45,973 nt of DNA, taken from assembly GCA_018714785.1 (NCBI GenBank), contig DVMV01000005.1, positions 1-45,973 on the forward strand, given 5' to 3'. Positions 46-18,558 of this stretch are shown piece by piece. Each line of letters begins with the position of its first letter. Within the stretch, counting starts at the first letter, position 1. Both the position numbers and the translations under genes were made by a program. The notes below the pieces were generated by a model that was not told the origin of the DNA, made no database searches, and worked only from the letters and a program-made list of their open reading frames with translations. This DNA is from Candidatus Alloenteromonas pullicola. GTDB lineage: Bacteria; Bacillota_I; Bacilli_A; RFN20; CAG-826.

Positions 46-1137
46 TCACTCACCAAACACCTTGCAGTAGTCTTCCTTGAACTTCTCGATGCCGGAATCG
101 GTCAGCGGATGATGCAGCATCTGCTCAAAAAAACCGGCGTATGTTTTGTGCTCGTTGTTGCTTGGGTGGATTGTCTTAAACGCCCCCATGTGGTTGCCGT
201 CTTGATCTGTGGTAGTTGTGACTAAGCCGTTCCCCAACACGTTGAACTGATAACGTTCAAGAACGTAATATCCGAACCTATCGTCTATTAAGTATTTAAC
301 CTTGGAAGTAATTGTGCAGGCGAAAAGATCGTAATTCGGTGCCGCGGTCTCGGTTTTGTAAGTTATGAAAGATCCATCGCCTTGGGCTTTGACGAGATTT
401 TCGTCAGACGATTCATATACCACTTCGTAAGAATTCCCGTTGATGTCTTGCACTGTTTGCGGGAACCCCTTAATGGTGGATTGGGAAGTATCGGAATTAT
501 TGATGACGGTTATGCTTCCGGCGACTTCTTGGCCGTTTTCCGAGAAGGCGATGTTCGGCATGCCTTTGGCCGCCGCAATCAGCGCCGCCTCGACCGGCGA
601 CCCCGAGATGTCGTTGCCACCATCGGAATTGGTGGTGATCGTAATGGTTGGGTTTACGAGCACGAGGTTCTTCACCTCGCTGTTGATTGAGGTATAGCCG
701 AAAAGGCCGGCATCGCGCCCATCTGAACAAGCGATTTGTAGGCCGGTTATTGTATGCCCGCAGCCATTGAAGGTCGAGTTGAACGGCATGTCGTCGGATC
801 CGATCGGGGCCATGGAGGTTCCGATCCAATCGATGTTGGTTGTCAAATTGAAGACATCGTCTTCGTCAAATAACCCTAGCGAGACCAGCATCTGCAGGTT
901 GCGGAGTTGATCCTCATTGCCTATCTGGTAGGTGGTCTTGCCGGTGTCGGCGTCTTTCGTGATGCTGTTGAAGTAGTCGCTCAGGTCGCTGAAGTCGATT
1001 CGATTGGAATACTCGGCCTCGATGGCGTTTAGGTAGGCCGCCAAGGTTATGCCGCCTAGCGAGAAGACCATCGCGAAAAACGAAAAAGCCGCGGTGAGCG
1101 ATAGGGCTAATTTCGTTTTGAAGGAACAGGTGGCCAT
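46..1137 (-). CDS. exported GLUG-repeat-like surface protein under a c-di-GMP riboswitch
   Basis: The protein has 363 residues from the ATG. An N-terminal hydrophobic stretch (about residues 8-35) preceded by Lys forms a signal peptide or membrane anchor. Residues 95-170 contain the pattern seen in GLUG/beta-helix surface proteins: 'APIGSDDMPFNSTFNGCGHT' followed by 'GLFGYT' and 'VKNLVLVNP'. The rest is Ser/Thr/Asn-rich and looks extracellular. No sortase or lipobox motif is visible. The start is uncertain: the ATG at 1137 has no clear Shine-Dalgarno, while an in-frame GTG at 1161 lies inside the riboswitch aptamer and has GAGG upstream. The promoter and c-di-GMP-I riboswitch directly upstream indicate c-di-GMP control. 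It is probably an adhesin or matrix-type protein (inference). Confidence 0.75.
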   Translation of the reverse strand: MATCSFKTKLALSLTAAFSFFAMVFSLGGITLAAYLNAIEAEYSNRIDFSDLSDYFNSITKDADTGKTTYQIGNEDQLRNLQMLVSLGLFDEDDVFNLTTNIDWIGTSMAPIGSDDMPFNSTFNGCGHTITGLQIACSDGRDAGLFGYTSINSEVKNLVLVNPTITITTNSDGGNDISGSPVEAALIAAAKGMPNIAFSENGQEVAGSITVINNSDTSQSTIKGFPQTVQDINGNSYEVVYESSDENLVKAQGDGSFITYKTETAAPNYDLFACTITSKVKYLIDDRFGYYVLERYQFNVLGNGLVTTTTDQDGNHMGAFKTIHPSNNEHKTYAGFFEQMLHHPLTDSGIEKFKEDYCKVFGE

Positions 1138-1151
1138 AGTCTTGTTTTGGA

Positions 1152-1224
1152 TTGGTGGCACCTGGCTGCCTCGGAGAGGCCCTGTAGTTTTGCGCCCCTA
1201 GATCGCTCTAGGTTTGCCTTTGTC
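1152..1224 (-). promoter_or_regulatory. c-di-GMP-I (GEMM-I) riboswitch aptamer
   Basis: Read on the minus strand, the element runs AAAGGCAAA, then a hairpin CCTAGA-GCGA-TCTAGG with a GNRA loop, then GGCGCAAAACTACAGGGCCT, a short P3 loop, and GGCAGCCAGGTGCC. These are the conserved blocks of the GEMM-I class, in order and with correct spacing. The ligand-contacting position before the conserved CAAA is G, as in c-di-GMP-binding members; cGAMP-type variants carry A there. It lies between a promoter and the surface-protein gene. Confidence 0.9.
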
Positions 1225-1230
1225 GAGTCC

Positions 1231-1283: not shown

Positions 1284-2006
1284 TCAACGGCCCTTCGACA
1301 GGTTCAATAGCAGACCGGCCACTAGGCGCCCAATGAAGGGCATCGCCTCGAGCCCCTTGCGGCGGAAATTGAGGCGCTCGGAGACGGCATTGGCCTCGTA
1401 ATTGACGGCTTTTATCGAAAGAAGCGAGGTTTTGCGGAGATAACAGGCCAAGGCAACGCCGTAGGAGGAGTTGTCGTAGCAGGTCAGCCTCGAGTAGCCG
1501 GCGTACCTCATCTTGAGCTTCTGCTGGTACTCGGGCTCATCGAGCAGGCGCATGTCCCCGCTTAGCAAGGAGGCGCGCTCAATGAATTTGCCACCCAGCT
1601 CATACCCGATCGATTCCGCCTTCTCGGCGAGGCTAGGCTCGGTGAGGAAGAAAGGGGGCAGGCCCGGGAGCTGCCCGGATATGGTCTTGCCGTCGCCGGA
1701 ATAGTCTATGCCCTCGACGTAGTAGCGCTCGGGGATGAAGATGTCGCCTTGGTGGAGCGTCCCCTTGATGGAGGCGACGCAGCCGATGTTGATGACCAGA
1801 TACGGATCGTATACCGAAAGCAGGGTGGCGGTGTTTATGCCGACTAAGCTGAGCCCGATTCCGACGCAGGAGACGGCGACCTTCTCCTCGCCCAGCGTCC
1901 CGACCGCGGCGTGGAGGTAGTCGTTGATGTTCTCCTCCCTCGCGAGGTTTAGCCGGTTGCGCAGGTAGAGCAAGGCGTCCTGGTCTTCGCCGACGATGAG
2001 TATCAT
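1284..2006 (-). CDS. MTA/SAH nucleosidase-fold protein lacking the catalytic residues
   Basis: The 240 residues match the whole length of the 5'-methylthioadenosine/S-adenosylhomocysteine nucleosidase (PNP/UDP phosphorylase) family. 'VGIGLSLVGINTATLL' and 'NIGCVASIKGTLHQGDIFIP' correspond to the family's SGIGKV..GAT and NTGSAGG..VGDIVV blocks, and 'LLSGDM' to the VSGDAF segment. The catalytic positions are changed: the N-terminal Glu aligns with Ala11, the EMEA motif reads YDNSS (177-181), and RAISD reads KAVNY (199-203). A classic MTAN activity is therefore unlikely. It may bind a nucleotide or nucleoside as a sensor, or have a new specificity (inference). It is the last gene of the riboswitch operon and overlaps the EAL gene by 4 bases. 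Confidence 0.75.
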   Translation of the reverse strand: MILIVGEDQDALLYLRNRLNLAREENINDYLHAAVGTLGEEKVAVSCVGIGLSLVGINTATLLSVYDPYLVINIGCVASIKGTLHQGDIFIPERYYVEGIDYSGDGKTISGQLPGLPPFFLTEPSLAEKAESIGYELGGKFIERASLLSGDMRLLDEPEYQQKLKMRYAGYSRLTCYDNSSYGVALACYLRKTSLLSIKAVNYEANAVSERLNFRRKGLEAMPFIGRLVAGLLLNLSKGR

Positions 2007-3595
2007 TGCCTTGCCTCCTTTTCGGCCTTGCGCCGATCGCGGTCGTCTTTCTCCTTCTTCTTGCGCCTGGCCTCGTCTTCCTCGACCAGCGCCTCGAAGG
2101 CGTCTTTGCGTAGCGGGCGGGAGAAGTAGTATCCCTGGATGCCATCGGCCCCAAGCGAGGACAATATCTCGACCTGCTTCAGGCTCTCGGCCCCCTCGGC
2201 CACGACCTTCATCCCCAGCGCGTGGACCAGCGAGATGATCGACCCGACCATGTCGCGGGACTTCTTCTCGATCTCGAGGTCGTCGATGAACGATTTATCT
2301 ATCTTGAGGACGTCGAAAGGTATCGATTTGAGGGCGCTCAATGAGGAATACCCGATCCCGAAGTCGTCGATCGAGGTCTTGAATCCGAGCTCCTTGATGC
2401 GCCTGATGACCGAGGAGATGAAGACCAGGTTCTCGGCCGCGAGGGATTCGGTCAGCTCAAGCTCCATCTCTGATGGGTCGACGCCGTACTTCTCGACGGT
2501 GCTGGAAAGGAAGTCGAGCAGCCCGGGGTCGTATACCGTCCGGCGGGATAGGTTGACCGATATGGTGAGCGGCTTCCTCCCGGCTTTGGCCCATTCCTGC
2601 TTGGCCTTGCAGGCGGAGAGGAAAACGAAGTGGTCGATCTCTACGATGCGTCCGGAGTATTCGCAATAGGGCACGAAGACCGATGGCGGCAACAGGCCCC
2701 TCCGGGGGTGCTTCCAGCGGATCAGCGCCTCGGCCCCGTAGTAGCCGCCGCCTCTAAGCGAGCGCTTGGCCTGGTAGAAAACGATCAATTCGCCGCGTTC
2801 GATGGCGGAGGAGAGGTCGGTGTCGAGCCAGTGCAGGGCCGCGTCGTCTTCTTGAAGTGAGGGGCTATACGGCTGAAGGTCGCAGGAAAGGCGGTTGTTG
2901 GCGGAATGCCGGAGGGCGTATTCGGCCTCCTGAAGCAGCGCTTTGCCGTCGATGCGCCTGCCCTTCTCCACCAGCCTTCGGGATTCGCCGGATAGAAGGT
3001 AGGCGTAGGGCAAGGCCCCGGTGTTCTGCAGCGAGGAGGAAAGCTCGAGCACGATGGCCCGGTATTCGTCGAGGCGCTCGGCCTCATCCTCGACAAGTTC
3101 GAGCAGGGAGAACCCGCCGATTATCGAATAGCCGATCCTGGCGTATGGCAATTTATCGCGGAGGAAATCGTAGGAATGCCGCATGGCCTTGATGGCGTTT
3201 TCCCTCTGCATCGAGAAGATCGATGAGTTCGACGGCCCCTTGACCGAGACCATGAGGCAGATCATCTTGTTCTTCCTGCCGTCGGCCTTGGCCCTCCTCG
3301 CCAGCCTGGCGAGCTGCTTTGGGGTAAAGATCGGAAGGTCCTCGCCGAATATCTCCTTGATGCGCTTGCTCTTCAGCGACGATGTAATGAATCTCGATAG
3401 GGAGAACAAAGACCCGATGGTCAGGATGGCGAATGCCAGCGATAGCGAGAGGACCGCCCAAAGCGAGTCCCCGGCGACCGGGCGGCCGGAGGAAAGCGAC
3501 AGCGACAAAAGGGTTATCAAGGCCGCGAAGCAGGCGGCGTCGAGGCAGGCGAGCCCCGCGAATAGGCCTAGGCTAAGCTTCTGGGATTGGTTCAT
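2003..3595 (-). CDS. membrane-bound EAL-domain c-di-GMP phosphodiesterase with degenerate GGDEF-like region
   Basis: Two N-terminal membrane helices (about 12-35 and 44-68) are followed by a region resembling a degenerate GGDEF domain (about 105-240; the active-site loop reads 'IIGGFSLLE'). A complete EAL domain (about 262-500) follows. The catalytic signatures are intact: EALIRW (289-294), NLS (348-350), ELTES, IDDFGIGYSSL (409-419), KIDKSFI (431-437), VVAEGAE (464-470) and QGYYFSRP. Active hydrolysis of c-di-GMP to pGpG is therefore expected. The last 30 residues are a Lys/Glu/Arg-rich tail. It overlaps the signal peptidase gene by 4 bases and sits in an operon headed by a c-di-GMP riboswitch, so it can feed back on its own control signal. 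Confidence 0.93.
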   Translation of the reverse strand: MNQSQKLSLGLFAGLACLDAACFAALITLLSLSLSSGRPVAGDSLWAVLSLSLAFAILTIGSLFSLSRFITSSLKSKRIKEIFGEDLPIFTPKQLARLARRAKADGRKNKMICLMVSVKGPSNSSIFSMQRENAIKAMRHSYDFLRDKLPYARIGYSIIGGFSLLELVEDEAERLDEYRAIVLELSSSLQNTGALPYAYLLSGESRRLVEKGRRIDGKALLQEAEYALRHSANNRLSCDLQPYSPSLQEDDAALHWLDTDLSSAIERGELIVFYQAKRSLRGGGYYGAEALIRWKHPRRGLLPPSVFVPYCEYSGRIVEIDHFVFLSACKAKQEWAKAGRKPLTISVNLSRRTVYDPGLLDFLSSTVEKYGVDPSEMELELTESLAAENLVFISSVIRRIKELGFKTSIDDFGIGYSSLSALKSIPFDVLKIDKSFIDDLEIEKKSRDMVGSIISLVHALGMKVVAEGAESLKQVEILSSLGADGIQGYYFSRPLRKDAFEALVEEDEARRKKKEKDDRDRRKAEKEARQ

Positions 3596-4377
3596 CTTCT
3601 CTCCCTCCTAAGCTCTTTCCTCAATTTCCGGAGCTCTTTTTCCTTCTGCTTCTGCATGTCCTCGCGAAGCTCCTTTTTATAATGCCACTTTTCCTCGAAG
3701 GCCAAAACGGCGGCTTCGTCGTTTAAGTCGATGCCGGCCTGCTTCTTGGCCTGCTCGAGCTCCTCCTTCTCCTGTTTCGTTTCCTTCCGCAGCTTTATCG
3801 CCATCTCGGCTATGGAGTAGACGGCCGCGATGGCTAGCGGGGTGACGATCAGCAGCGGGAACACCCAGCTGGAATGGTTCTTCTCCGAGGGGACCTGGGG
3901 GCTGACGTAGGTCAGGAAGCTCCCGAAAGAAAGCGAGCTGTATACGACCGTGCCGACGTAATTGGACTCCGGCACCACCTCGCGGTAGTCCTCGCTCCAC
4001 GATCCGCCGGAAAGCTGGGCGTTGAGGTTGTCGCCCCTAGTGTAGAAGGTGAGGGTCCCGTCCTGGTTGCGCTCTATCTCGTGGACGCGGTGGGTGTCGG
4101 TCGCGCCGAGCTCGGGGTAATAGAAGGTGATGATGTCGCCGACCTCCACGTTCTCCGGCCCCTCGTCCTTGATGACGATGCCCGAGCCGACCGGCAGCGA
4201 ATCGGGCAGGTCGCCCTCCATCGAGTCGGTCGCGACGTAGAGGAAGGAATAGCCGAACACCGATGGCACGCCGTAGTTGCTCCCCATCGAGGCGACCATC
4301 GAGATCTGGCAATAGGCAAAGAACGCCACCAGGGCGATGAGCAGGCCGTTGATGGTGTAGCTGATCCACTTCCTCAT
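3592..4377 (-). CDS. sipW: ER-type (SipW-like) signal peptidase I with charged C-terminal tail
   Basis: The 261-residue protein has a first membrane helix at 8-26, followed by 'TDSMEGDLP' with the catalytic Ser52. 'THRVHEI' carries His96, the base used by ER-type and SipW-type peptidases instead of Lys. 'TRGDNLN' holds the conserved Asp116. A second helix spans about 171-192. Family members process TasA/camelysin-type precursors, and such precursors are encoded in the same operon and divergently nearby, so they are the likely substrates. The final 70 residues form a Lys/Glu-rich, probably coiled-coil cytoplasmic extension that is not typical of signal peptidases. It overlaps both neighbours by 4 bases. 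Confidence 0.9.
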   Translation of the reverse strand: MRKWISYTINGLLIALVAFFAYCQISMVASMGSNYGVPSVFGYSFLYVATDSMEGDLPDSLPVGSGIVIKDEGPENVEVGDIITFYYPELGATDTHRVHEIERNQDGTLTFYTRGDNLNAQLSGGSWSEDYREVVPESNYVGTVVYSSLSFGSFLTYVSPQVPSEKNHSSWVFPLLIVTPLAIAAVYSIAEMAIKLRKETKQEKEELEQAKKQAGIDLNDEAAVLAFEEKWHYKKELREDMQKQKEKELRKLRKELRRERR

Positions 4378-6509
4378 CTTCTCTTGCCTTTCTTGGCGTA
4401 GTCGACGACAAAGCTCCTGCCGCCGCGCTTGGAGCGGGTCTTGAGGGTGGTGTAGGTCGGCTTACTTGGCTTAGACGCCTCCTCGGCCTTCTTCTCCTCT
4501 TTCTTGGCTTTGCGGGCGGCCTTGCCTTTCTTCTTCGGCTTCTTCGGCTTGTCCTCGGTTTTGCCGTCTGAGGCCTCCTCTGCGGACTTTTCCTTTTCGG
4601 AATCCGGGGAATCTGCGGGCTTTTCCGGCTCGGCCTTGGCTTCTTCCTCGGGCTCGCCTGGGGCTTTATCCTCGGCCTTACCTTCTGAAGAATCCTGCTT
4701 CTGCTCGGTCTTCTCCGCCGGCTTTGCCTCTTCCTTGGGAGCCTCCTCGGCTACTGGGACGGACTTTTCCACTGCGGTCGCGGACTGCTCTTTGGCCAGC
4801 TCCTCTTCCGGGGCGCTGGAGATTATCGCGGCGACGTCCTCTTGCTTTGGGGCCTCCTCCTTGATTGGCTCCTCGGCGACGGGCGATTCCGAAACAGCCT
4901 CCGTTTCCAGCGGCTTCTCTTCCTCTACCCTCTTGGCCGGCTTGGCCTTTTTGGCCGCCTTCTTCGCCACGCGGCGCACCCGCTTGGGCGTGCCGACGGT
5001 GGTCTTTATGCCCTGCTCCTCGGGGGTGGAGGCGATGATCGGGGTCTGCTCGACGACGATTGGGGTCTCGTCGGGGAAGCCGTCGCTTGACTTCGGGGCG
5101 GGTTTCTCTCCCGCGCGGTCCTTCTTGCCGGCCTCGACGATCATGATCCTCGCCTTCCTTAGCTTGCGCAGCTCCTCCTCGGCGGCCCGATCGGCCTTCC
5201 GCTTGGCCTCTAGCTGCTCGGAAAGCTTGGCCTTCTCGGCCTCGATGGCGGCGCGGATGAGCTCGCGCTCGTCCTGCTTCCGCTTCTCCTCGAGCATCTT
5301 GCGGTTGGCCCTTGCCTGCAGCTCGATCTCGCGCTCCTTGGCGCGCTCGATCTCGGCCTCGACGATGGCTTTCTTGGCCTTGTCCTCGGCCCGTTTGCGC
5401 TCGAGCTCCTCCCGGTAGGCCTTCGATTCCTCGACGGTCGGGTAGAGCGGGCTGATCTTCTTCCGCTCCCGGAGCGGGAACTGGTCGTATAGGAAGCGGC
5501 CGTCGTAGAAGGTCTCGTCCTCGAGCGAGAAGAGCACCTTCGGGATTATCTTCCTCTTGACCGACTTGGCCTTGACCTCGTCGTCTTTGACGAGGTTCCC
5601 CTCGAGGGTGACGATCGAGGCGGCCAGAAGCGAGCAAAGCGTCTCGACGTAGTCGTCTTTGAACTTCTTGCTGTCCTCCTTGACGGAGACCTCGATGCCC
5701 AGTTCCTTGTAGGAGTCGATGAACTTCCATAGGGCGAGGGCCTTCTTGTACTCCGGGTTCTTGACCAGCAGGTTGGTGGGGTGGATCGGGTTGGCGACCT
5801 CCTTGGCCCCCTTCATGGCCGACATGAAGGGCGAGGAGGCGAAGTAGGCGACCCGCTCGCGCAGCTTGGCGAGGCGGATCATCAGGTCCTCGTTGGCCTT
5901 GGCCTTGCCCGAGTCTGTGGAGGCGCAGGAAAGCTTGATCCTGGTGTCGACCTCGTACTTGACCTCGCCGACGTTGTGGTCGGTGTGCAGCAGCAGCACC
6001 TCGGAATCGCGGGTCTCGCCATGGTCCTTGATGAAGAGAAGGCGCTTCTGGATGAAGACCGAGCACTTCTTGATCAGGGTCATGATGAACCGGTTCTCAT
6101 AGATCCAGTAGTCGATATCCGATTCCGGGGTCAATAGCTTCTCCGGCGTGACGTTGCCGTCCTCGTCGACGTTGTGGACGTATTGGGTGTGGGATGCCAG
6201 ATGGCTTATCGAGCGGGGCGAGATCCGCTTGGCCCTCCCGGCCTCGACCAGCACGTCGTCCTCCTTGATGAAGGTGCGGGGGTTCTTGATGATCGCGTCG
6301 ATGGCGTCGAAGCCCTTCTCGAGCTCGTCGATGAAGGAGGGGTCGATGGACTTGGCCTCGAGGCGCGACTTCTGGGCGAGGTAGGTGTTCCTCTCCTGGC
6401 GCAGCGAAAGCAGCAGCTCATAGAATGAGGCGCTTTGGGTGAGCAGGGTTTTTATCTTCCTTAGGTATGCCCGCTCGGCAAGGCTAAGGGTGGTGCGGGC
6501 CTTTGGCAT
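4374..6509 (-). CDS. DUF2357/McrC-like protein with no visible nuclease and a long charged tail
   Basis: The 711-residue protein is soluble. Residues 60-150 resemble the DUF2357 domain found in McrC-like partners of McrB ATPases: 'IIKNPRTFI', 'RISPRSISHLASH' and the hallmark 'YENRF' (137-141). 'HPTNLLVKNPEYKKALALW' (243-261) matches the segment that precedes the PD-(D/E)XK nuclease in that family. No nuclease motif follows. Instead there is a Lys/Glu/Arg coiled coil (about 358-460) and then about 250 residues of low-complexity Glu/Pro/Ala/Lys sequence ending in a basic patch. It starts one base after the stop of the McrB-like ATPase gene, which is the usual McrB-McrC order. The McrC relation is by motif recognition, not alignment score. 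Confidence 0.65.
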   Translation of the reverse strand: MPKARTTLSLAERAYLRKIKTLLTQSASFYELLLSLRQERNTYLAQKSRLEAKSIDPSFIDELEKGFDAIDAIIKNPRTFIKEDDVLVEAGRAKRISPRSISHLASHTQYVHNVDEDGNVTPEKLLTPESDIDYWIYENRFIMTLIKKCSVFIQKRLLFIKDHGETRDSEVLLLHTDHNVGEVKYEVDTRIKLSCASTDSGKAKANEDLMIRLAKLRERVAYFASSPFMSAMKGAKEVANPIHPTNLLVKNPEYKKALALWKFIDSYKELGIEVSVKEDSKKFKDDYVETLCSLLAASIVTLEGNLVKDDEVKAKSVKRKIIPKVLFSLEDETFYDGRFLYDQFPLRERKKISPLYPTVEESKAYREELERKRAEDKAKKAIVEAEIERAKEREIELQARANRKMLEEKRKQDERELIRAAIEAEKAKLSEQLEAKRKADRAAEEELRKLRKARIMIVEAGKKDRAGEKPAPKSSDGFPDETPIVVEQTPIIASTPEEQGIKTTVGTPKRVRRVAKKAAKKAKPAKRVEEEKPLETEAVSESPVAEEPIKEEAPKQEDVAAIISSAPEEELAKEQSATAVEKSVPVAEEAPKEEAKPAEKTEQKQDSSEGKAEDKAPGEPEEEAKAEPEKPADSPDSEKEKSAEEASDGKTEDKPKKPKKKGKAARKAKKEEKKAEEASKPSKPTYTTLKTRSKRGGRSFVVDYAKKGKRR

Positions 6510-6510
6510 A

Positions 6511-8064
6511 TCAGCTTACGGTCTTGAGGAAGCTCCTTATCTTGGCTTTGGACAGCTTGAACTCGTTCTTGCCGAAGAGCTTGGTCAGCTCGGCCTCGAG
6601 GTCCATCAGCTCGTCGCGGAGGAAGGAGATGTTTAGCACCTCGAACTTCTTCAGGATCTTCGACTCGAAGATGTAGTCGATGGCCTGTAGCTCGGTCCCG
6701 CCGCAGGCGACGTAGCAGGGGACGAAGGACTCCATCTGGCGCAGGATTCGGTTGCCGAAGGCCAGGCGGAACTTGGCGATGACGAACTCGTCGAGGGACT
6801 CGAACTTCTCGCGGTTCTTGGAAGAGAGCGGGAAGTCGGCCTTGGCCTTCTCGAATAGCGAGGCGACGTATTCGTATGGCAGCGGGCAGGCCTCGGTGAA
6901 GGTCGAGTCGAAGGGGATGCCCTTGTTGTCGAAGAAAAGCGACATCGAGCGGTCGTAGACCTTGTCGGTGATGGTGAAGGTCGAATCGTCGTTGTTGGCG
7001 GTGCCGACGAAGATTATGTTCTGCGGGATCAAGAGCTTCCCGTCGGTGAGGTGCTTCGGGTCGTCTTTCCGCGGCGCGGCGACAAGCGAGATGTTCCACT
7101 CGCTGACGTTGGGCATCTCCATGATGGAGAGGAACTCGGCGAAGTAGTACTCGATGCGGGCGAGGTTCATCTCGTCGAGGACCACGACGGATAGGTCGTC
7201 GCGGTAGGTGGCCTCGTAGATGGCGCGCAGGAACTCGGTCTCGGTGAAGCGGTGGGTGAAGTCGTTGTAGTAGCCGAGCAGCTCCGAGCGGTCATGCCAG
7301 CTGGGCTGGACCGAGCAGATGGCGGCGTTATGCCTTATGAAGCGCCCGAAGGCGTAGGGCAAGGAGGTCTTGCCGGTGCCGGATATTCCCTCGAGGATGA
7401 TGATCTTGGAGGTACCGATGGAGGCGATGAACTCGCGCATGGTCTCGATGGTGTAGTAAAGCCCGAGCTGGGAGGCGCAGAAGAGGCGGAACCGCTCGCA
7501 GATGCCCTCCAGCGATATGTTGGCGGCGTCCTCGGGCAGGACGGTGGGGCGCATCGGGGTGGCGTAGCGGGCGTCGACGTCGCATAGCTTCGGGAACCTG
7601 ACGTCGTCCTCGCTGGCCTCCTCTTCCTTCTTCTCCAGGTCGCCTTCCGCCTTGGGCGCGTTGGCGTCTATCCCGGCGGTGGCTAGGCTATGGACCTGCA
7701 GCCCCAGGACGCGGTCCTTCTCGGAGAGCGCGTGGTATAGCTCGAGGTTGAGCCGCTCGATCTCCTCGCGGTACTTAGTGGTGTCTTCGGTGGAGGCGCG
7801 GAAATGCACGTAGCGGCGTATAAGGTAGTATGCAAGATAGCCCAAGGCCCCGAAGGCGGCGATGAGCAAGATGAGGAACAGGATGAAGAAGAACCATCCT
7901 CCTCCCCCGAAGTCGGGCGAGTAGTTGGCGAAAAGCGAATTGTAGTAGTCAACCTGCCCCGGCACCTTCGACCACGGATAGGCGAACGCGTCGGAGAAGA
8001 AATGTCCGAGGTTGGTGAAGAACTCGATTATCATCTGCTTTAGGTATTCGAAGTAAGCGCTCAT
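6511..8064 (-). CDS. membrane-anchored McrB-type AAA+ ATPase
   Basis: Residues 56-84 form a transmembrane helix, so the AAA+ domain is tethered to the membrane with a charged linker (85-180). The ATPase has Walker A 'GISGTGKT' (226-233), the McrB-family block 'VQPSWHDRSELLGYYN' (252-267), Walker B 'VVVLDEMNLAR' (293-303), sensor 1 'GTANNDD' (354-360) and the arginine-finger segment 'DKVYDRS' (367-373). These are McrB-subfamily hallmarks. The N-terminal DNA-recognition domain of restriction McrB proteins is absent and replaced by the membrane anchor. It is followed one base later by the DUF2357-like gene, its likely partner. A role in export or assembly of the surface proteins is inferred from the operon. 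Confidence 0.88.
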   Translation of the reverse strand: MSAYFEYLKQMIIEFFTNLGHFFSDAFAYPWSKVPGQVDYYNSLFANYSPDFGGGGWFFFILFLILLIAAFGALGYLAYYLIRRYVHFRASTEDTTKYREEIERLNLELYHALSEKDRVLGLQVHSLATAGIDANAPKAEGDLEKKEEEASEDDVRFPKLCDVDARYATPMRPTVLPEDAANISLEGICERFRLFCASQLGLYYTIETMREFIASIGTSKIIILEGISGTGKTSLPYAFGRFIRHNAAICSVQPSWHDRSELLGYYNDFTHRFTETEFLRAIYEATYRDDLSVVVLDEMNLARIEYYFAEFLSIMEMPNVSEWNISLVAAPRKDDPKHLTDGKLLIPQNIIFVGTANNDDSTFTITDKVYDRSMSLFFDNKGIPFDSTFTEACPLPYEYVASLFEKAKADFPLSSKNREKFESLDEFVIAKFRLAFGNRILRQMESFVPCYVACGGTELQAIDYIFESKILKKFEVLNISFLRDELMDLEAELTKLFGKNEFKLSKAKIRSFLKTVS

Positions 8065-8073
8065 ATGCCCTCC

Positions 8074-9051
8074 TTAGTCGTTTTGGAATAATGGGATGAA
8101 GCCGAGGCTTAGTTTCGCCCGGGCCCCGCTTAGGCTGTTGTCCGCGAGGGGGTCGAAGCCCTCGACGTAGAAGCTGATGGTGATTTTCTTGGCCTGGTGT
8201 GCCTCAAGCTGCAATAGCGGCTTGGCGGCGCTGCCCTGAGAGGAAGCGGCCCCGTCGTGGACGTAGGAAGAGAAGGATTCGTTGCTCTCTTTCGCGATTC
8301 CTTCGCCGTCTAGGTCGATCGACAGGCTTCCCGGCGCGGTTTTCTCTCCGTTGGGGTAGACGTGGCCTTCGTCTTGGATGTAGGTTGGCTCGCCTTGGTA
8401 ATCCCCGTATAGGACGTCTTTGCCGTCTTTTGAATCGGCATAGCCGTCGAAGTCGAGGTCGAGCGGGGCGGCGTAGGATATGCTGCGCCCCTCGTTGGCG
8501 AAGATGGTGGTGGTGCCGTCGAACGACATGGCGATCCGGCTGGCCTGCTCTATCCGCTTGAGGCTTCCGCTCTGTAGGCCCAAAGCCGTTTCCCGCTGGC
8601 GGTTGTAGTCCCCGTCCTCCTCAATGCCCGAGCCGTCCTCTAGGTAGACATAGCAGGACTCGCTCGACAGCAGATAGACGTCGAACTGGATGAATCCGCG
8701 GGAGGTTTCGGTGAAGTGCGGCGGGTCGGCGTAGAAGGTCGGAAGCTCCCCTTGGTTTCCCCCAAAGGCCGTGGTGACGGTGCTTATCGACGAGGGGATG
8801 TCGGGGTAATGGGCCTTCAGGATCGAGGAATCGACGTCTTGGTAGTAGGCGACGTCGCCGAGCAATGAGTTCGGCAGCCCGATCTTTATCTCGTCCTCGC
8901 CGGCGAAAGAAAAATCCAATCCCTGCACCTTCTGCGAGCTGCTTACCTCAAAGAAGGCGTAGGTCGCCGTCACGGATGAGGCCAAAGACAGCCCCATGCA
9001 GGCGGCTATGACGGCCAGATATACGCCAAGCCGGTTGCCTTTTCTTTCCAT
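8074..9051 (-). CDS. exported protein with SipW-type (TasA/camelysin-like) signal
   Basis: The 325-residue protein has a basic start and a hydrophobic segment (about 9-32) ending 'SSVTATYAFFEV'. This is the T-x-A-x-F pattern that follows the cleavage site in SipW substrates such as TasA and camelysin. The remainder is rich in Ser, Asp and Gly, has predicted beta character, and has no further membrane helix. The end 'SFYVEGFDPLA' followed by 'GARAKLSLGF' resembles the C-termini of its upstream neighbour and of the divergent TasA-like protein. It is probably a fibre or matrix subunit processed by the peptidase encoded three genes downstream. Confidence 0.75.
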   Translation of the reverse strand: MERKGNRLGVYLAVIAACMGLSLASSVTATYAFFEVSSSQKVQGLDFSFAGEDEIKIGLPNSLLGDVAYYQDVDSSILKAHYPDIPSSISTVTTAFGGNQGELPTFYADPPHFTETSRGFIQFDVYLLSSESCYVYLEDGSGIEEDGDYNRQRETALGLQSGSLKRIEQASRIAMSFDGTTTIFANEGRSISYAAPLDLDFDGYADSKDGKDVLYGDYQGEPTYIQDEGHVYPNGEKTAPGSLSIDLDGEGIAKESNESFSSYVHDGAASSQGSAAKPLLQLEAHQAKKITISFYVEGFDPLADNSLSGARAKLSLGFIPLFQND

Positions 9052-9055
9052 GAAA

Positions 9056-9982
9056 CTATGACTGGTATTCCAACGAGAACGTCATCGAGGCGCCTTCAGG
9101 TGCCTTTCCGCGGCATTCCGGATCGTATCCCTCCAGCCAGGCCACCAACGTGTACCTGACCGCCGCGCTCGGGGCGATGGTCATCCCCGATAGGTCGAAA
9201 ATCCTTCCTTTGGTGTCGAGGAAGGGGGTGCAGTATCCCGAGGATTTCTGGTTGTCGGTGCTCATCGGGTTCCTTCTTCCGCCCTCATCTTGGGAGAACT
9301 GCGAGATGCATTCCCTTACGTCGTCATCGCCCTCGCCGGTCCCGGCCGTGCGCGACTGAAGGCCATAGACGGTATAGTCGTGCGTCTGCTCGGCGCCCGG
9401 GAAGGTCAGCACGGGGTTGATGAAGACGGCCACGCGCAGATACTCGTAAGGCTCGATCGCCTCGTTGGTGGGGGATACGTAGTCGCTGACGTTGAGCGTG
9501 ACCCGGTAGGTCACCTCGTCGTCGGTCTTATTCCGTAGGTACCAGGTGTGCACGAGCGCGTAGTTGCGCCGACTGTCACCCTCCCCCTCGTAAAGCGAGT
9601 TCTCGCCCGAAAGCTGCGCGTTGGAATCGAAGCTGTCGATGTGGTTGAACACCTGACTGGCCGCGACCGGCTTGGCCTCGGATAGGCCCGATCCAAGCAT
9701 GGTTGAGGTCATGGGGCCATCGACCTCGTAGGATAGGCCCAGGCGATTTGAGAAATCGCGGGGGTCGATGGAGATGGTGAAGTTGCCGCTTACCCTTCCG
9801 AGGAAGGCGATGATCATGAGCATGGCCAAAACCGCGGCTGAGGTGGAGCCGACGGCGATGGCTATATTCCGCCTCTTCCTGCGCTTGGCGGCTTTCTCCG
9901 GCGTCAAAACGCCCTTCATGCCGATGGCGTCGATCTTAGGCAGGTCCTGCTTGACCTTTTTCTCTTTCTTCTTTTTGGGCAC
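9056..9982 (-). CDS. membrane-anchored surface protein, TasA-like ectodomain
   Basis: First gene of the riboswitch operon. I place the start at the GTG at 9982 because AAAGGA lies 10 bases upstream. An in-frame ATG at 10045 would add 21 residues but has no good ribosome site. From the GTG, about 38 residues of Lys/Arg-rich cytoplasmic sequence precede one membrane helix (about residues 39-62), then an extracellular domain of about 245 residues. The helix is not followed by a SipW cleavage pattern, so the protein probably stays anchored. The C-terminus contains 'YTLVAWLEGYDPECRG', a motif shared in form with the two SipW-type exported proteins. It could anchor or nucleate the fibre (inference). 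Confidence 0.7.
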   Translation of the reverse strand: MPKKKKEKKVKQDLPKIDAIGMKGVLTPEKAAKRRKRRNIAIAVGSTSAAVLAMLMIIAFLGRVSGNFTISIDPRDFSNRLGLSYEVDGPMTSTMLGSGLSEAKPVAASQVFNHIDSFDSNAQLSGENSLYEGEGDSRRNYALVHTWYLRNKTDDEVTYRVTLNVSDYVSPTNEAIEPYEYLRVAVFINPVLTFPGAEQTHDYTVYGLQSRTAGTGEGDDDVRECISQFSQDEGGRRNPMSTDNQKSSGYCTPFLDTKGRIFDLSGMTIAPSAAVRYTLVAWLEGYDPECRGKAPEGASMTFSLEYQS

Positions 9983-10000
9983 GGCTGAAAAATCCTTTTT

Positions 10001-10019
10001 CCGCCTATCATCAAGGCGG
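10001..10019 (-). promoter_or_regulatory. hairpin directly upstream of the operon's Shine-Dalgarno
   Basis: A perfect 6-bp stem CCGCCT / AGGCGG with a 7-base loop ends two bases before the AAAGGA site (9993-9998) of the first operon gene. It may take part in riboswitch-linked control of translation. The stem itself is not followed by a clean U-run, so it does not look like an intrinsic terminator. Confidence 0.35.
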
Positions 10020-10136
10020 GCGCTCCCTCTCCTCGGCCATACCATTGGAATCCATTCCCGGGGATTGGGGGCTTAGCCCTAGTGGAAGCAAGGAAAATGC
10101 AGCTCAGTTGCCCGCGGAGATGATCTCCTGCTTCCT

Positions 10137-10209
10137 GGGGTAACTGGCTGCCGTCTTTCGCTTAGGCCCTTTAGTTTTGCGCCGCCAGGTTTCCCTGGCT
10201 TTGCCTTTC
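10137..10209 (-). promoter_or_regulatory. c-di-GMP-I (GEMM-I) riboswitch aptamer heading the seven-gene operon
   Basis: On the minus strand: AAAGGCAAA, hairpin GCCAGG-GAAA-CCTGGC with a GNRA loop, GGCGCAAAACTAAAGGGCCT, a CCTAAG tetraloop-receptor-like segment, then GGCAGCCAGTTACC. All conserved GEMM-I blocks are present and nearly identical to the second copy at 1152-1224. The base before the conserved CAAA block indicates c-di-GMP rather than cGAMP specificity. About 150 bases of leader separate it from the first start codon. Confidence 0.93.
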
Positions 10210-10217
10210 ACGCCGCT

Positions 10218-10247
10218 ATTATTTGCCTTATCGCCGGTGCATGTCAA
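10218..10247 (-). promoter_or_regulatory. promoter of the c-di-GMP-controlled operon
   Basis: On the minus strand a consensus -35 TTGACA (10242-10247) and -10 AATAAT (10218-10223) are 18 bases apart. The predicted start, around 10210, coincides with the 5' edge of the riboswitch. Confidence 0.75.
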
Positions 10248-10304: not shown

Positions 10305-10688
10305 CTATTTCTTGGTCGACTCCTCTTCCAGTTCCTTCAGCAGTTCCGCCTTGGCCTCTTCTTTCGCCTTCTCGGCGATGATCTTCCGCTCGGAGTCGCT
10401 TAGCTTGGATTCCCGCTTCAGGGCGAAGTAGACGAGGTAGACGATATCGACGGCCAGTATGAGCAGCAGGGGAAGGACTATCACGAGGAAGAAAACCGTC
10501 GCGTTGTTCTGGAAATACCCGATCATCGGGCCGTTTTCCGAAAGGTTGAGCTCTTTGTAGGTGGCCGGGAACTCCTCGGGGGAGTTGTAGGTGACGATCA
10601 CCAAGATCGATACGACCAGCCCGAATATTATGATCGCGGCCTCGGCTATGCCCGCCGCCCACAGCAGGATTTTCTTCTTTTTGTCCAT
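10305..10688 (-). CDS. small two-helix membrane protein of unknown function
   Basis: 127 residues with a Lys-rich start, membrane helices at about 8-32 and 64-90, a short polar loop between them, and a charged, probably coiled-coil C-terminal tail rich in Lys and Glu. I do not recognise a family. It is separately transcribed but lies between the c-di-GMP operon and the divergent TasA-like gene, and its charged cytoplasmic tail resembles those of other proteins at the locus. A role in the same surface system is possible but unproven. Confidence 0.65.
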   Translation of the reverse strand: MDKKKKILLWAAGIAEAAIIIFGLVVSILVIVTYNSPEEFPATYKELNLSENGPMIGYFQNNATVFFLVIVLPLLLILAVDIVYLVYFALKRESKLSDSERKIIAEKAKEEAKAELLKELEEESTKK

Positions 10689-10925: not shown

Positions 10926-11801
10926 ATGAAAACCAAGAGCAAACTCTTACTAGCCCTCTCCGCCCTCACCGTCGGCACCGTTGCCGCTGGGGCGACCGGC
11001 ACCTATGCGTGGTTCACCGCCTCGCGCACCGCGACCATGAACATCACCAACATCACCGCCACCAACACCCGCGGCAATTTGAACATCGGCTACTTCGATC
11101 TCGAGGACTCCGCTACGGTCACCGGCAACACCACCAGCACCGTCGAACTAAGATCCGAGACCCCGCTATATGACGTCTCCTCCCGCGATGGCCAGATCTT
11201 CTACGCGCCTGTTTGGGGCACTGGGGATGAGCCCATCGCCTATAAGACCACTACTGAAGGCTATCTGACCTTCGGCATCGTCCTAAGCAACCAAGGCACC
11301 GATCCCATCAGCTGCTACTTCGATTCCGCCAATTCCTCGATAACCGGCAGCGGAAACGAGCCGCTGGCAAGGTGGACAAAAGTTGCCATCAACGCCCAGA
11401 AGAAAGGCACCCAGCAGCCGACGTCTTTCGGCACCAACGACATCACCACGCCCGGCCATTTCGTTTTCATGGAGAACACCAACGAGGATGAGGCCGGCAG
11501 CCTATCGAAATACATCACCGGGACCACGACTTCGGATACCGGCACTTATAGCGGCGGCGATCATTTCTTCACCACCGTGAAAGGCGTTGATGCGATGCCA
11601 ACCGACAACACGAACAACGAAGAGTTGGCCTGCTACCTCGGCGACATCGAAGGAACAACCGGGAGCAATTACCTATACGTCACCGTTGCCATCTGGATGG
11701 AAGGCGCGATTGTCCAAAACCAGAACGATGCCAGCGGCAAGACCATCAACATCAAATTGGCCTTCGGCGCCCTTGACGCCGATGCCGGCGTTGGCGCCTA
11801 A
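10926..11801 (+). CDS. TasA/camelysin-like secreted protein
   Basis: The 291-residue protein has an N-terminal basic and hydrophobic signal ending 'ATGTYAWFTASRT', the classic SipW-substrate motif (compare GGTFAYFSD in camelysin). The mature part is Thr/Asn/Gly-rich, low in charge, and fits a beta-sandwich fibre subunit. Near the C-terminus 'VTVAIWMEGAIVQNQN' resembles the endings of the two exported proteins across the divergent promoter region. It has its own promoter, a long leader and a strong terminator, so it is a stand-alone, probably highly expressed transcript. It is likely the main fibre or matrix protein matured by the SipW-like peptidase encoded at 3592-4377 (inference). Confidence 0.82.
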   Translation: MKTKSKLLLALSALTVGTVAAGATGTYAWFTASRTATMNITNITATNTRGNLNIGYFDLEDSATVTGNTTSTVELRSETPLYDVSSRDGQIFYAPVWGTGDEPIAYKTTTEGYLTFGIVLSNQGTDPISCYFDSANSSITGSGNEPLARWTKVAINAQKKGTQQPTSFGTNDITTPGHFVFMENTNEDEAGSLSKYITGTTTSDTGTYSGGDHFFTTVKGVDAMPTDNTNNEELACYLGDIEGTTGSNYLYVTVAIWMEGAIVQNQNDASGKTINIKLAFGALDADAGVGA

Positions 11802-16524: not shown

Positions 16525-16990
16525 GGCCGTCGCCATAACCGATGGCCGGGGATTGCTGCTGCTGCGGGGCGAGGATGGGAAATACAGCCTGCCGGTGGCG
16601 AGCTTCGTCCCGGATTCGCTGCGCGAGGTCGGGCGCGTCCGCTCATGGGCTATGGGCGGAAGGCCGCTGCCGATAGTCGGGTATTGCGAATTGCTGCCGC
16701 TGCCAAGCGGGCTGCCGCATCGCTATTTCGGCAAAGGCGAGCTCGACTCGCCTTGCATAGACAAAGGCTCGCTCTCCCTCATCAAGGCGGCGTTTTGCTT
16801 CTACCCGCTGCTATTCGATACTCGGCGCGAGCTGCCCTTATCCCCCGATGACCTCCGCGAGGCCAAGTCGATGCTGCGCGCCCTAGCCAGGAAGGGGAAA
16901 GCCGAGGCGAAGGACTTCAAGGGCCTGCTGGGCCGCCAGAGCCACATCGGGCAGCTGCGCGAGGCCTATGCCTTCCTCATGTCGCTATGA
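16505..16990 (+). CDS. small protein of unknown function, possibly a degenerate Nudix fold
   Basis: 161 residues from the ATG at 16505, chosen because GGAGG lies 6 bases upstream. It overlaps the phospholipase-like gene by 20 bases and the cardiolipin synthase gene by 4. The beginning, 'AVAITDGRGLLLLRGEDGKY' followed by 'SLPVASF', looks like the first strands of a Nudix hydrolase, but no Nudix box (GX5EX7REUXEEXGU) is present. It has no membrane segment or signal. I do not recognise the family. Confidence 0.65.
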   Translation: MKGNEDRAVAITDGRGLLLLRGEDGKYSLPVASFVPDSLREVGRVRSWAMGGRPLPIVGYCELLPLPSGLPHRYFGKGELDSPCIDKGSLSLIKAAFCFYPLLFDTRRELPLSPDDLREAKSMLRALARKGKAEAKDFKGLLGRQSHIGQLREAYAFLMSL

Positions 16991-18558
16991 TACGGAAGCT
17001 GCTCTCGCGCGGGTTCGCCAAGAAGGCGATCATCGCCTTCCTGATCCTGGTCCAGTTCGTCCTGCTGCTGGTTCTTTTCCTTTGGCTGTCCGGCTTCTCG
17101 GGCCTCAACCCGGCTTGGGTCATCATCATCGTGGTGGCCCTATGCGCCGCCTCCGACGTGGCGGGGTTCTACATCCTCAATTCCACCTCTTCCGATGCCT
17201 ACCGGCTGAGCTGGATGCTGGTCGTCTTCGTCCTTCCCGGGGTCGGGCTTTTCCTTTACTTGTTCTTCGCCAATAAGCAGAACACCCGCCGGGTGAGGGA
17301 CGGCACGCGGAAGGTGGTGCTGCCGGTGATCGAGCAGGATTGGGACGAGGAGGAGAAGGAGGGGCTGAGGAAGTCCAGCGACCCCTGCTACAACATCTCC
17401 TGCTTCCTATACAACGTCGACAAGATAATCCCATACCGCCGTTCGAGCGTGGAGTACTTCCCGCTGGCGGACTTCGTCCTCGACCCCATGCTGCGCGAGC
17501 TGTCGAAGGCCAAGCACTATATCTTCATCGAGTTCTTCATCATCGAGGAAAAGGGCGTCTTCTTCTCCTCGATGCTCGAGATTCTGCGCAAAAAGGCCGC
17601 GGATGGGGTCGACGTCAGGATCATATACGACGACGTCGGCAGCCTAACCACGGTCGACGATTCCTTCCCCGAGCGGATGGAGAGGCTCGGCATCAAAGTA
17701 ACCCCGTTCAACCGGTTCCGGCCGTTATTGGATGTCCGGCAGAACAACCGCAACCACCGCAAGATGCTCATAGTCGATGGGCATACCGCCTTCACCGGCG
17801 GCTTCAACATCGCCGACGAGTACCTGAACAAGAAGGAGCGGTTCGGGCACTGGAAGGACAACGCGATCCTAGTCCGGGGGGAGGCCGTTACCGCCTATAC
17901 GCTCACCTTCCTCTCCGATTGGCTGCTGTCCCATCCGGGCGAGGTCATAGACAAAGCGTCCTACCACTCCTCGGCGCACATCGACGAGATCGGCGGCTAT
18001 CCGGAGGAGGAGGGCTACGTCGAGCCCTACGCCGATCTGCCTTACGACGGCGAGGCGGTGGGGGAGCGGGTCTACCTCTCGATCATCGAGCGGGCGACAA
18101 AATACGTCTACATCGCCACCCCATACCTCATCATGGACTCCGAGATGGAGAACGCCCTTTGCTTCGCCGCGAAGTCGGGCGTCGACGTGCGGGTGCTGAC
18201 GCCCCATATACCCGACAAGAAGGCGGTTTTCGGCTTGACCAGGTCAAACTACAAGAAGCTGCTGCAGTCCGGGGCCAAGGTCTATGAGTACACCCCCGGC
18301 TTCGTCCACGAGAAGATGTTCGTCTCCGACGACGCCATCGCGACCGTGGGGACCATCAACCTCGACTACCGGTCGCTTTACCTCCACTTCGAGAACGGGA
18401 CCCTGCTCTACGGGCACCCGGCCATAAAGAACATGAAGCGCGATTACCTCGACACCATCGCCGTCTCCAAGCAGGTGACGCCGGAGGACTACGCGAGGTG
18501 GGAGAGGAAGAACAAATACTACTGGGGGCTGCTCAAGGCCATCGCCCCCTTCCTATGA
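16987..18558 (+). CDS. cls: cardiolipin synthase (phospholipase D family)
   Basis: The 523-residue protein has two N-terminal membrane helices (about 15-42 and 47-95, including 'LSWMLVVFVLPGVGLFLYLF') followed by two phospholipase D domains. The first HKD-type motif is 'NHRKMLIVDGHTAFTGGFN' (around residue 255) and the second is 'VHEKMFVSDDAIATVGTIN' (around 439). Both contain the catalytic His and Lys. It condenses two phosphatidylglycerol molecules to cardiolipin. The length and the membrane-anchor layout are normal for bacterial Cls. The start overlaps the previous gene (ATGA). Confidence 0.95.
   Translation: MIRKLLSRGFAKKAIIAFLILVQFVLLLVLFLWLSGFSGLNPAWVIIIVVALCAASDVAGFYILNSTSSDAYRLSWMLVVFVLPGVGLFLYLFFANKQNTRRVRDGTRKVVLPVIEQDWDEEEKEGLRKSSDPCYNISCFLYNVDKIIPYRRSSVEYFPLADFVLDPMLRELSKAKHYIFIEFFIIEEKGVFFSSMLEILRKKAADGVDVRIIYDDVGSLTTVDDSFPERMERLGIKVTPFNRFRPLLDVRQNNRNHRKMLIVDGHTAFTGGFNIADEYLNKKERFGHWKDNAILVRGEAVTAYTLTFLSDWLLSHPGEVIDKASYHSSAHIDEIGGYPEEEGYVEPYADLPYDGEAVGERVYLSIIERATKYVYIATPYLIMDSEMENALCFAAKSGVDVRVLTPHIPDKKAVFGLTRSNYKKLLQSGAKVYEYTPGFVHEKMFVSDDAIATVGTINLDYRSLYLHFENGTLLYGHPAIKNMKRDYLDTIAVSKQVTPEDYARWERKNKYYWGLLKAIAPFL

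Follow-up and report, generated by a model that had tools for sequence, protein, structure and literature searches.

Organization of the operon

The window analysed here is a stretch of 45,973 nucleotides (nt) from Candidatus Alloenteromonas pullicola, consisting of one contig (DVMV01000005.1) of a metagenome assembly of 1.05 Mb in 41 contigs that is 86% complete (GCA_018714785.1). On its minus strand, from position 10247 to position 1284, it carries an operon in which a GEMM-I riboswitch precedes seven genes. These encode, in order, a membrane-anchored surface protein, an exported protein with a SipW-type signal peptide, a membrane-anchored AAA+ protein of the McrB type, a DUF2357 protein related to McrC, a signal peptidase, a predicted EAL phosphodiesterase and a protein with a nucleosidase fold (Table 1). 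An earlier note, made from the letters of the DNA alone, had described a promoter, a GEMM-I aptamer and seven tightly packed genes. All these parts are present where it placed them, and no gap exceeds 9 nt (the spacings between the seven open reading frames (ORFs) are, in order, +4, +9, +1, -4, -4 and -4 nt), and the riboswitch also passes the covariance-model check that had been proposed, the gathering score of RF01051 being 35 bits. At a permissive threshold RF01051 was again the best family for the operon aptamer. Two RF01051 matches are found in the whole genome, both in the window; the second, with the exported-protein gene that follows it, lies just beyond the interval that the earlier note had delimited. 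From the alignment of the starts of related proteins, the first gene probably begins at the GTG codon at 9982 rather than at the ATG codon at 10045, because the relatives begin there.

Conservation of the gene order in related genomes

Relatives of the AAA+ protein were detected in 44 of the 61 genomes searched. The neighbourhoods of 50 loci, and then of 80 further named loci, were examined, some genomes being common to both sets; the loci come mostly from metagenome assemblies with broken contigs, and the gene maps were obtained with a simple ORF caller. Clustering at 90% identity divides the 79 AAA+ proteins of the named loci into 65 groups. The gene order anchored surface protein, SipW-type exported protein(s), membrane McrB, DUF2357, Ser/His signal peptidase, EAL and dead nucleosidase fold is near-invariant and recurs in about 80 other loci from many genomes, so that the conserved synteny sought among relatives is indeed observed. 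Among the named loci, a SipW-type exported gene is directly upstream of the AAA+ gene in 68 cases out of 68 and DUF2357 directly after it in 63 out of 64. The signal peptidase (59/60), the EAL protein (54/55) and the nucleosidase fold (48/48) come next in this order, the anchored protein is found upstream in 44 of 46 loci, and GEMM-I immediately precedes the operon in 44 of 53. Neighbouring genes are separated by a median of 2 nt. This recurrence is far above chance and is not an accident of one genome.

All the named loci belong to uncultured genomes of the Bacilli type, for the most part of gut or rumen origin; of those with a name, that of Candidatus Alloenteromonas pullistercoris is the nearest. 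A sample of the phylum shows that 79 of 392 genomes, from the same class further out, keep the AAA+/DUF2357 core; the signal peptidase is nearly always present at these loci and the exported or anchored proteins usually are, and some of them have two EAL genes upstream instead. A second type of locus (L064-L071 and L080) contains up to three SipW-type exported proteins, a signal-peptidase-like protein, an AAA+ protein of about 605 amino acids (aa) and DUF2357, together with an ABC ATPase and permease and a protein of 830 aa.

The AAA+ protein and its DUF2357 partner

The AAA+ protein displays a weak Pfam match to AAA_5 (4.9e-4), and McrB was the sole match when its profile was compared with the PDB. 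Walker A, Walker B and the signature N357-x-D359 (NxD) are invariant in an alignment of 23 proteins. The transmembrane (TM) segment is localized around residues 56-84 and is followed by a heptad-like stretch; the relatives match coiled-coil families weakly, and family searches of the window protein and its relatives gave no match to FtsB/DivIC. No DNA-recognition domain was found by Pfam on this protein, of which the TM segment forms the N-terminus.

The next protein matches PF09823 (DUF2357) above the gathering score, and PF09823 is recognized in 15 of 21 members. An AlphaFold2 model of its core was obtained with a predicted local distance difference test (pLDDT) value of 81. Foldseek against the PDB returned no significant match for this model or for that of the exported protein; a second structure comparison then provided Z-scored matches, where the McrC entries 6ut5, 6ut7, 6hz4 and 6ut6 represent four of the top five (Z 7.6-8.3), the similarity being limited to the N-terminal domain of McrC. 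None of the 21 members matches a nuclease family, PD-(D/E)xK or other, and several end at 360-377 aa, right behind the DUF2357 core. As no nuclease family is matched, some members end after the core and only the N-terminal domain of McrC is recognized, the AAA+/DUF2357 pair is McrBC-like in fold yet is not a restriction enzyme. The homologues range from 360 to 2331 aa, the tail past the core being K/E-rich, of low complexity and highly variable in length. A comparison of the DUF2357 profile with the PDB by sequence gave only low-complexity matches and a short stretch of PvuII, which we regarded as chance.

The signal peptidase and the exported proteins

The signal peptidase is recognized by TIGR02228, the model of the archaeal/SipW branch of signal peptidase I, at 55 bits for a cut-off of 51.85. 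Residues Ser52, Met53 and His96 are invariant in 24 sequences, and the best PDB match is SEC11A. Against the equivalog model of Bacillus SipW (NF046067) the protein reaches 54.1 of 190 bits, below the cut-off; judged by these scores it is a relative of SipW and not its equivalog. In relatives that have an AAA+ protein of this kind, 42 of 75 TIGR02228 hits are found within 6 kb of one. The genome of the window has a SipW-type signal peptidase next to each of its two membrane McrB genes, and no other. The second of these McrB-like AAA+ proteins, of about 605 aa (L073, G000:C7:34807-37090), has the peptidase directly upstream and DUF2357 downstream, and its locus has no riboswitch.

The anchored and the exported proteins have in common a C-terminal EGxD block (hhalign E 2.5e-5). 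The AlphaFold2 model of the exported protein encoded at 8074..9051 is beta-rich, with a pLDDT of 76. The protein encoded after the second riboswitch has only 363 aa in the window, compared with 850-1014 aa in relatives; it lies at the edge of the contig, and an assembly error or a truncation is possible.

Riboswitches and their ligand

In the leader of the operon, the 3' strand of the aptamer can pair with a downstream strand ahead of a U-rich tract, which would constitute a terminator (-22.8 kcal/mol), and an outer stem would constitute the antiterminator (-18.0 kcal/mol); both are kept in relatives. Among 48 unique leaders the terminator stem has a mean energy of -20.6 kcal/mol, against -12.6 kcal/mol in dinucleotide shuffles (p 4e-22), and U-rich tails are present. 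These statistics were calculated from duplex energies; looking for the anti-aptamer strand without gaps overlooked stems with interruptions, including that of the window. In constrained folding of the window leader, the outer stem takes the place of the terminator when the aptamer strand is withheld. On these computed structures, the leader is predicted to be a transcriptional ON switch. Only 17 nt separate the 3' end of the second aptamer from the start codon; here regulation may act on translation, and its sign may differ from that of the first. Just past the terminator/antiterminator region, a conserved block TTGGGACA (or TAGGGCT) was noticed, for example at about 14790-14870 in L048 and at about 10070-10085 in the window. 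A further RNA element was considered for this block, which has no Rfam match.

The earlier note had assigned the ligand as cyclic di-GMP (c-di-GMP). For the window this agrees with the specificity base, since a G is found in its aptamers at the position equivalent to G20 of Vc2; in the relatives, 39 of 53 operon leaders have an A there (alignment A8, column 11), as in sensors of 3',3'-cyclic GMP-AMP (3',3'-cGAMP) (PMC6274999). This position has been described as a factor of selectivity and not as a hard filter. From these bases it is possible that close relatives switch between c-di-GMP and 3',3'-cGAMP sensing. One might also propose an OFF switch, or a sensor of 3',3'-cGAMP, so that the logic would be reversed or the messenger another one; the A of the 39 leaders would fit such a sensor, and the distance of 17 nt between the second aptamer and its start codon would permit control of translation in either direction. 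We consider this distinctly unlikely, given the G of the window aptamers, the EAL and GGDEF genes that accompany the system, and a terminator that uses the aptamer's own 3' strand, the arrangement of the ON switch of pilM (PMC9262584).

The riboswitch regulon, the EAL protein and the nucleosidase fold

Exported proteins follow the second GEMM-I aptamer in the window and in relatives. By inspection of 39 free-standing GEMM-I aptamers in relatives, about 22 stand before the gene of an exported protein of the SipW type or of an anchored one, and 12 before a gene whose product has its GGDEF motif intact. A GEMM-I aptamer in L217 (G037:C1) is found before an apparent acetyltransferase gene, neither exported nor signalling. 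The genome of the window contains two GGDEF and two EAL domains. All seven catalytic motifs of the operon EAL protein are intact (7/7), and this protein is predicted to be a c-di-GMP phosphodiesterase.

Paralogous operon copies without riboswitch (L042, L044, L045 and L046, and also L099, L112, L115 and L127) have degenerate EAL domains; three of the four genomes of the first group hold a further copy with riboswitch and EAL. Among the loci with a readable upstream region and EAL gene, those lacking the riboswitch had degenerate EAL motifs, which is no more than suggestive of a loss of the riboswitch that tracks the loss of EAL activity. This is probably one event at the level of a lineage, because the riboswitch-less loci group together in the AAA+ tree.

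In the last protein of the operon, the C-terminal SD motif of nucleosidases reads NY, and the Asp is absent from this position in 16 of 16 relatives. The presence of an EAL protein and of a dead nucleosidase fold in one operon suggests nucleotide sensing, and the cytoplasmic tails of both DUF2357 and the signal peptidase are long and charged and differ widely in length. These characters would suit a surface-fibre operon where the McrB/DUF2357 pair, instead of driving export, works in the cytoplasm as a sensor or gate and turns the signal peptidase or the phosphodiesterase on and off. The invariant Walker A, Walker B and NxD motifs favour hydrolysis over a passive scaffold, though a gate could hydrolyse too, and such a role appears unlikely to us.

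Other features of the window

The genes of the window outside the operon are housekeeping, transport and O-antigen-ligase-like genes. A call of DrmC was dismissed, the gene at 16987-18558 being most likely of the cardiolipin-synthase type of phospholipase D. The coordinates of the operon and of the features that surround it are given in Table 1.

Table 1. Positions of the operon parts and of the surrounding features in the window.
Feature	Positions	Strand	Characteristics
Sigma-70-like promoter TTGACA-18-AATAAT	10218..10247	-	11/12 consensus match, directly 5' of the aptamer
GEMM-I (c-di-GMP-I) riboswitch aptamer of the operon	10136..10215	-	RF01051 63.3 bits, E 3.4e-10; G at the Vc2 G20 equivalent
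Expression platform	10082..10135	-	Predicted: anti-aptamer strand GGGCAACTGAGCTGC and U-rich tract as terminator; outer stem GGAAGCA/TGCTTCC as antiterminator
Membrane-anchored surface protein	9056..10045	-	N-terminal TM; C-terminal EGxDPDC-type block
Exported protein, SipW-type signal peptide (TATYAFF)	8074..9051	-	Alignment; predicted beta-rich fold
Membrane-anchored McrB-type AAA+	6511..8064	-	TM ~56-84, predicted coiled coil, Walker A/B, NxD signature
DUF2357 / McrC N-terminal-domain protein without nuclease	4374..6509	-	PF09823 above gathering score; long K/E-rich tail
SipW/ER-type (Ser-His) signal peptidase I	3592..4377	-	TIGR02228; long charged C-terminal tail
EAL c-di-GMP phosphodiesterase (predicted), N-terminal TM	2003..3595	-	EAL 4.5e-64; 7/7 motifs
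Methylthioadenosine/S-adenosylhomocysteine-nucleosidase-fold protein, predicted pseudoenzyme	1284..2006	-	PNP_UDP_1 3.8e-13; catalytic Asp absent
Second GEMM-I aptamer	1154..1228	-	RF01051 51.8 bits
SipW-type exported protein after the second riboswitch	46..1137	-	363 aa; ends at the contig edge
Divergent SipW-type exported protein (TGTYAWF)	10926..11801	+	Homologues at the same place in relatives
Small membrane protein 5' of the riboswitch	10305..10688	-	Small ORFs of similar kind with two TM are also seen just 5' of the operon in relatives

Discussion

The interpretation that we judge probable is that a nuclease-less McrBC has been re-used to export or assemble surface fibres, its operon being under second-messenger control. 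Binding of c-di-GMP to GEMM-I would keep the 3' strand of the aptamer from the terminator and allow read-through at high c-di-GMP. The operon would then yield an anchored surface subunit, one to four SipW-type exported subunits and the Ser/His signal peptidase that cleaves them, together with a membrane ring of the McrB-type AAA+ protein and its McrC-like activator. Since the McrC nuclease has been lost and a TM segment and a predicted coiled coil replace the DNA-recognition domain of the AAA+ protein, this pair most likely serves the fibre subunits at the membrane, where it would act in a physical complex and hydrolyse nucleotides at the cytoplasmic face for the export, restraint or assembly of the subunits at the signal peptidase. 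The EAL phosphodiesterase would lower c-di-GMP again and exert a negative feedback, and the dead nucleosidase fold may be a nucleotide-binding regulatory partner. The earlier note had proposed a dedicated, riboswitch-controlled surface-protein system including McrB and DUF2357; this proposal is strongly supported by the synteny, the covariance models, the missing nuclease and the lack of a defence island. Its further suggestion, that the ATPase may act in export or assembly, agrees with all the results obtained here.

Several points weigh against this interpretation. The functional coupling is argued from the gene neighbourhood, and the sign of the ON switch depends on computed structures, in which the outer stem covering the U-tract is present but weaker across the 48 leaders (p 0.006). 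The best structural matches of the exported-protein model are pilus subunits and archaeal filaments, weak ones with Z of about 5, and no Pfam or NCBIfam match to TasA or camelysin was obtained in P0006-P0009. TIGR04088 gave a weak match in one of 21 relatives, and TasA does not appear by name among the listed structural matches. The idea of TasA/camelysin-like substrates, put forward in the earlier note, thus agrees with the type of signal peptide and with a weak pilin-like fold match; by sequence, no such homology was detected. Finally, the PADLOC model PDC-M26A, a defence candidate, matches the AAA+ protein.

This last match, and the fact that McrB and DUF2357 form the classical type IV restriction pair, would accord with anti-phage defence, that is, a membrane-tethered machine of McrBC type with an effector linked to the membrane or surface, the exported proteins being coincidental or serving as phage decoys. 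PDC-M26A cannot separate the two kinds of McrB, however, because it matches equally a soluble McrB relative that is accompanied by Vsr and Lamassu genes and has no signal peptidase. This soluble relative is found within the same family of genomes. With no nuclease, an almost constant association with exported proteins, signal peptidase and EAL, a riboswitch regulon composed of exported proteins and no credible defence gene in the window besides the AAA+ protein, we regard a defence function as very unlikely.

Re-use for surface fibres has to be placed beside known systems. The Bacillus TasA/TapA/SipW operon similarly combines a SipW-type signal peptidase with exported proteins that have the same kind of signal peptide; the system of the window differs by having no TasA/camelysin family match and by the addition of the AAA+/McrC pair, the EAL protein and the riboswitch, none of which is known to be part of the Bacillus operon. 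The type IV restriction system McrBC of E. coli has in common with it the McrB-type AAA+ protein and the McrC N-terminal fold, whereas nuclease and DNA-recognition domain are absent here and a membrane anchor, a signal peptidase and exported proteins are present. In Geobacter, the pilM cGAMP riboswitch (PMC9262584) is also a GEMM-I-type aptamer whose 3' strand is common to the terminator and which is found 5' of surface-fibre genes; the pilus machinery is unrelated, and the window aptamer has the c-di-GMP-type base.

The closest system is CoCoPALM (Bell et al. 2024, PMC11090510), where an NxD McrB is fused to an FtsB-like TM/coiled-coil segment and the signal-peptidase proteins are thought to be pilus assembly factors. 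This clade is named in one passage, as a prediction that is deferred, and c-di-GMP, riboswitch and TasA are absent from the text. As in CoCoPALM, we find an McrB-type GTPase domain with NxD instead of NxxD, an McrC/DUF2357 partner and an adjoining protein of the signal-peptidase family; the TM segment with its predicted coiled coil may correspond to the FtsB-like one. Unlike CoCoPALM as published, the system is controlled by riboswitch and EAL and its exported substrates have a C-terminal block in common; the nuclease has been lost in this branch, a dead nucleosidase fold is present and the order of the seven genes is near-invariant. Judged by the NxD signature and the associated signal peptidase, it is probably a variant of CoCoPALM, itself predicted and uncharacterised. 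The statement of the earlier note that no characterised system has this set of genes is strictly true, although the pairing of McrB and signal peptidase had already been predicted. New are the control by riboswitch and EAL, the exported substrates, a riboswitch regulon that comprises SipW-type proteins together with GGDEF cyclases, and the loss of the nuclease.

More tentatively, and with somewhat less than even confidence in the whole, we propose that a nuclease-less membrane McrBC ring would be an energised machine for the export or assembly of surface fibres, governed by riboswitches for cyclic dinucleotides (c-di-GMP for some lineages and perhaps 3',3'-cGAMP for others) and fitted with its own phosphodiesterase brake. 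If this is true, a restriction-type motor has been re-used for protein export, and the annotation of McrB/DUF2357 pairs changes, the AAA+ family being listed as a candidate in a public defence database. CoCoPALM would become testable, as the riboswitch, the phosphodiesterase and the exported proteins predict when the system is on and what it handles. The operon would also point to a c-di-GMP-controlled surface programme in the small-genome Bacilli of gut and rumen, whose biology is almost unstudied.

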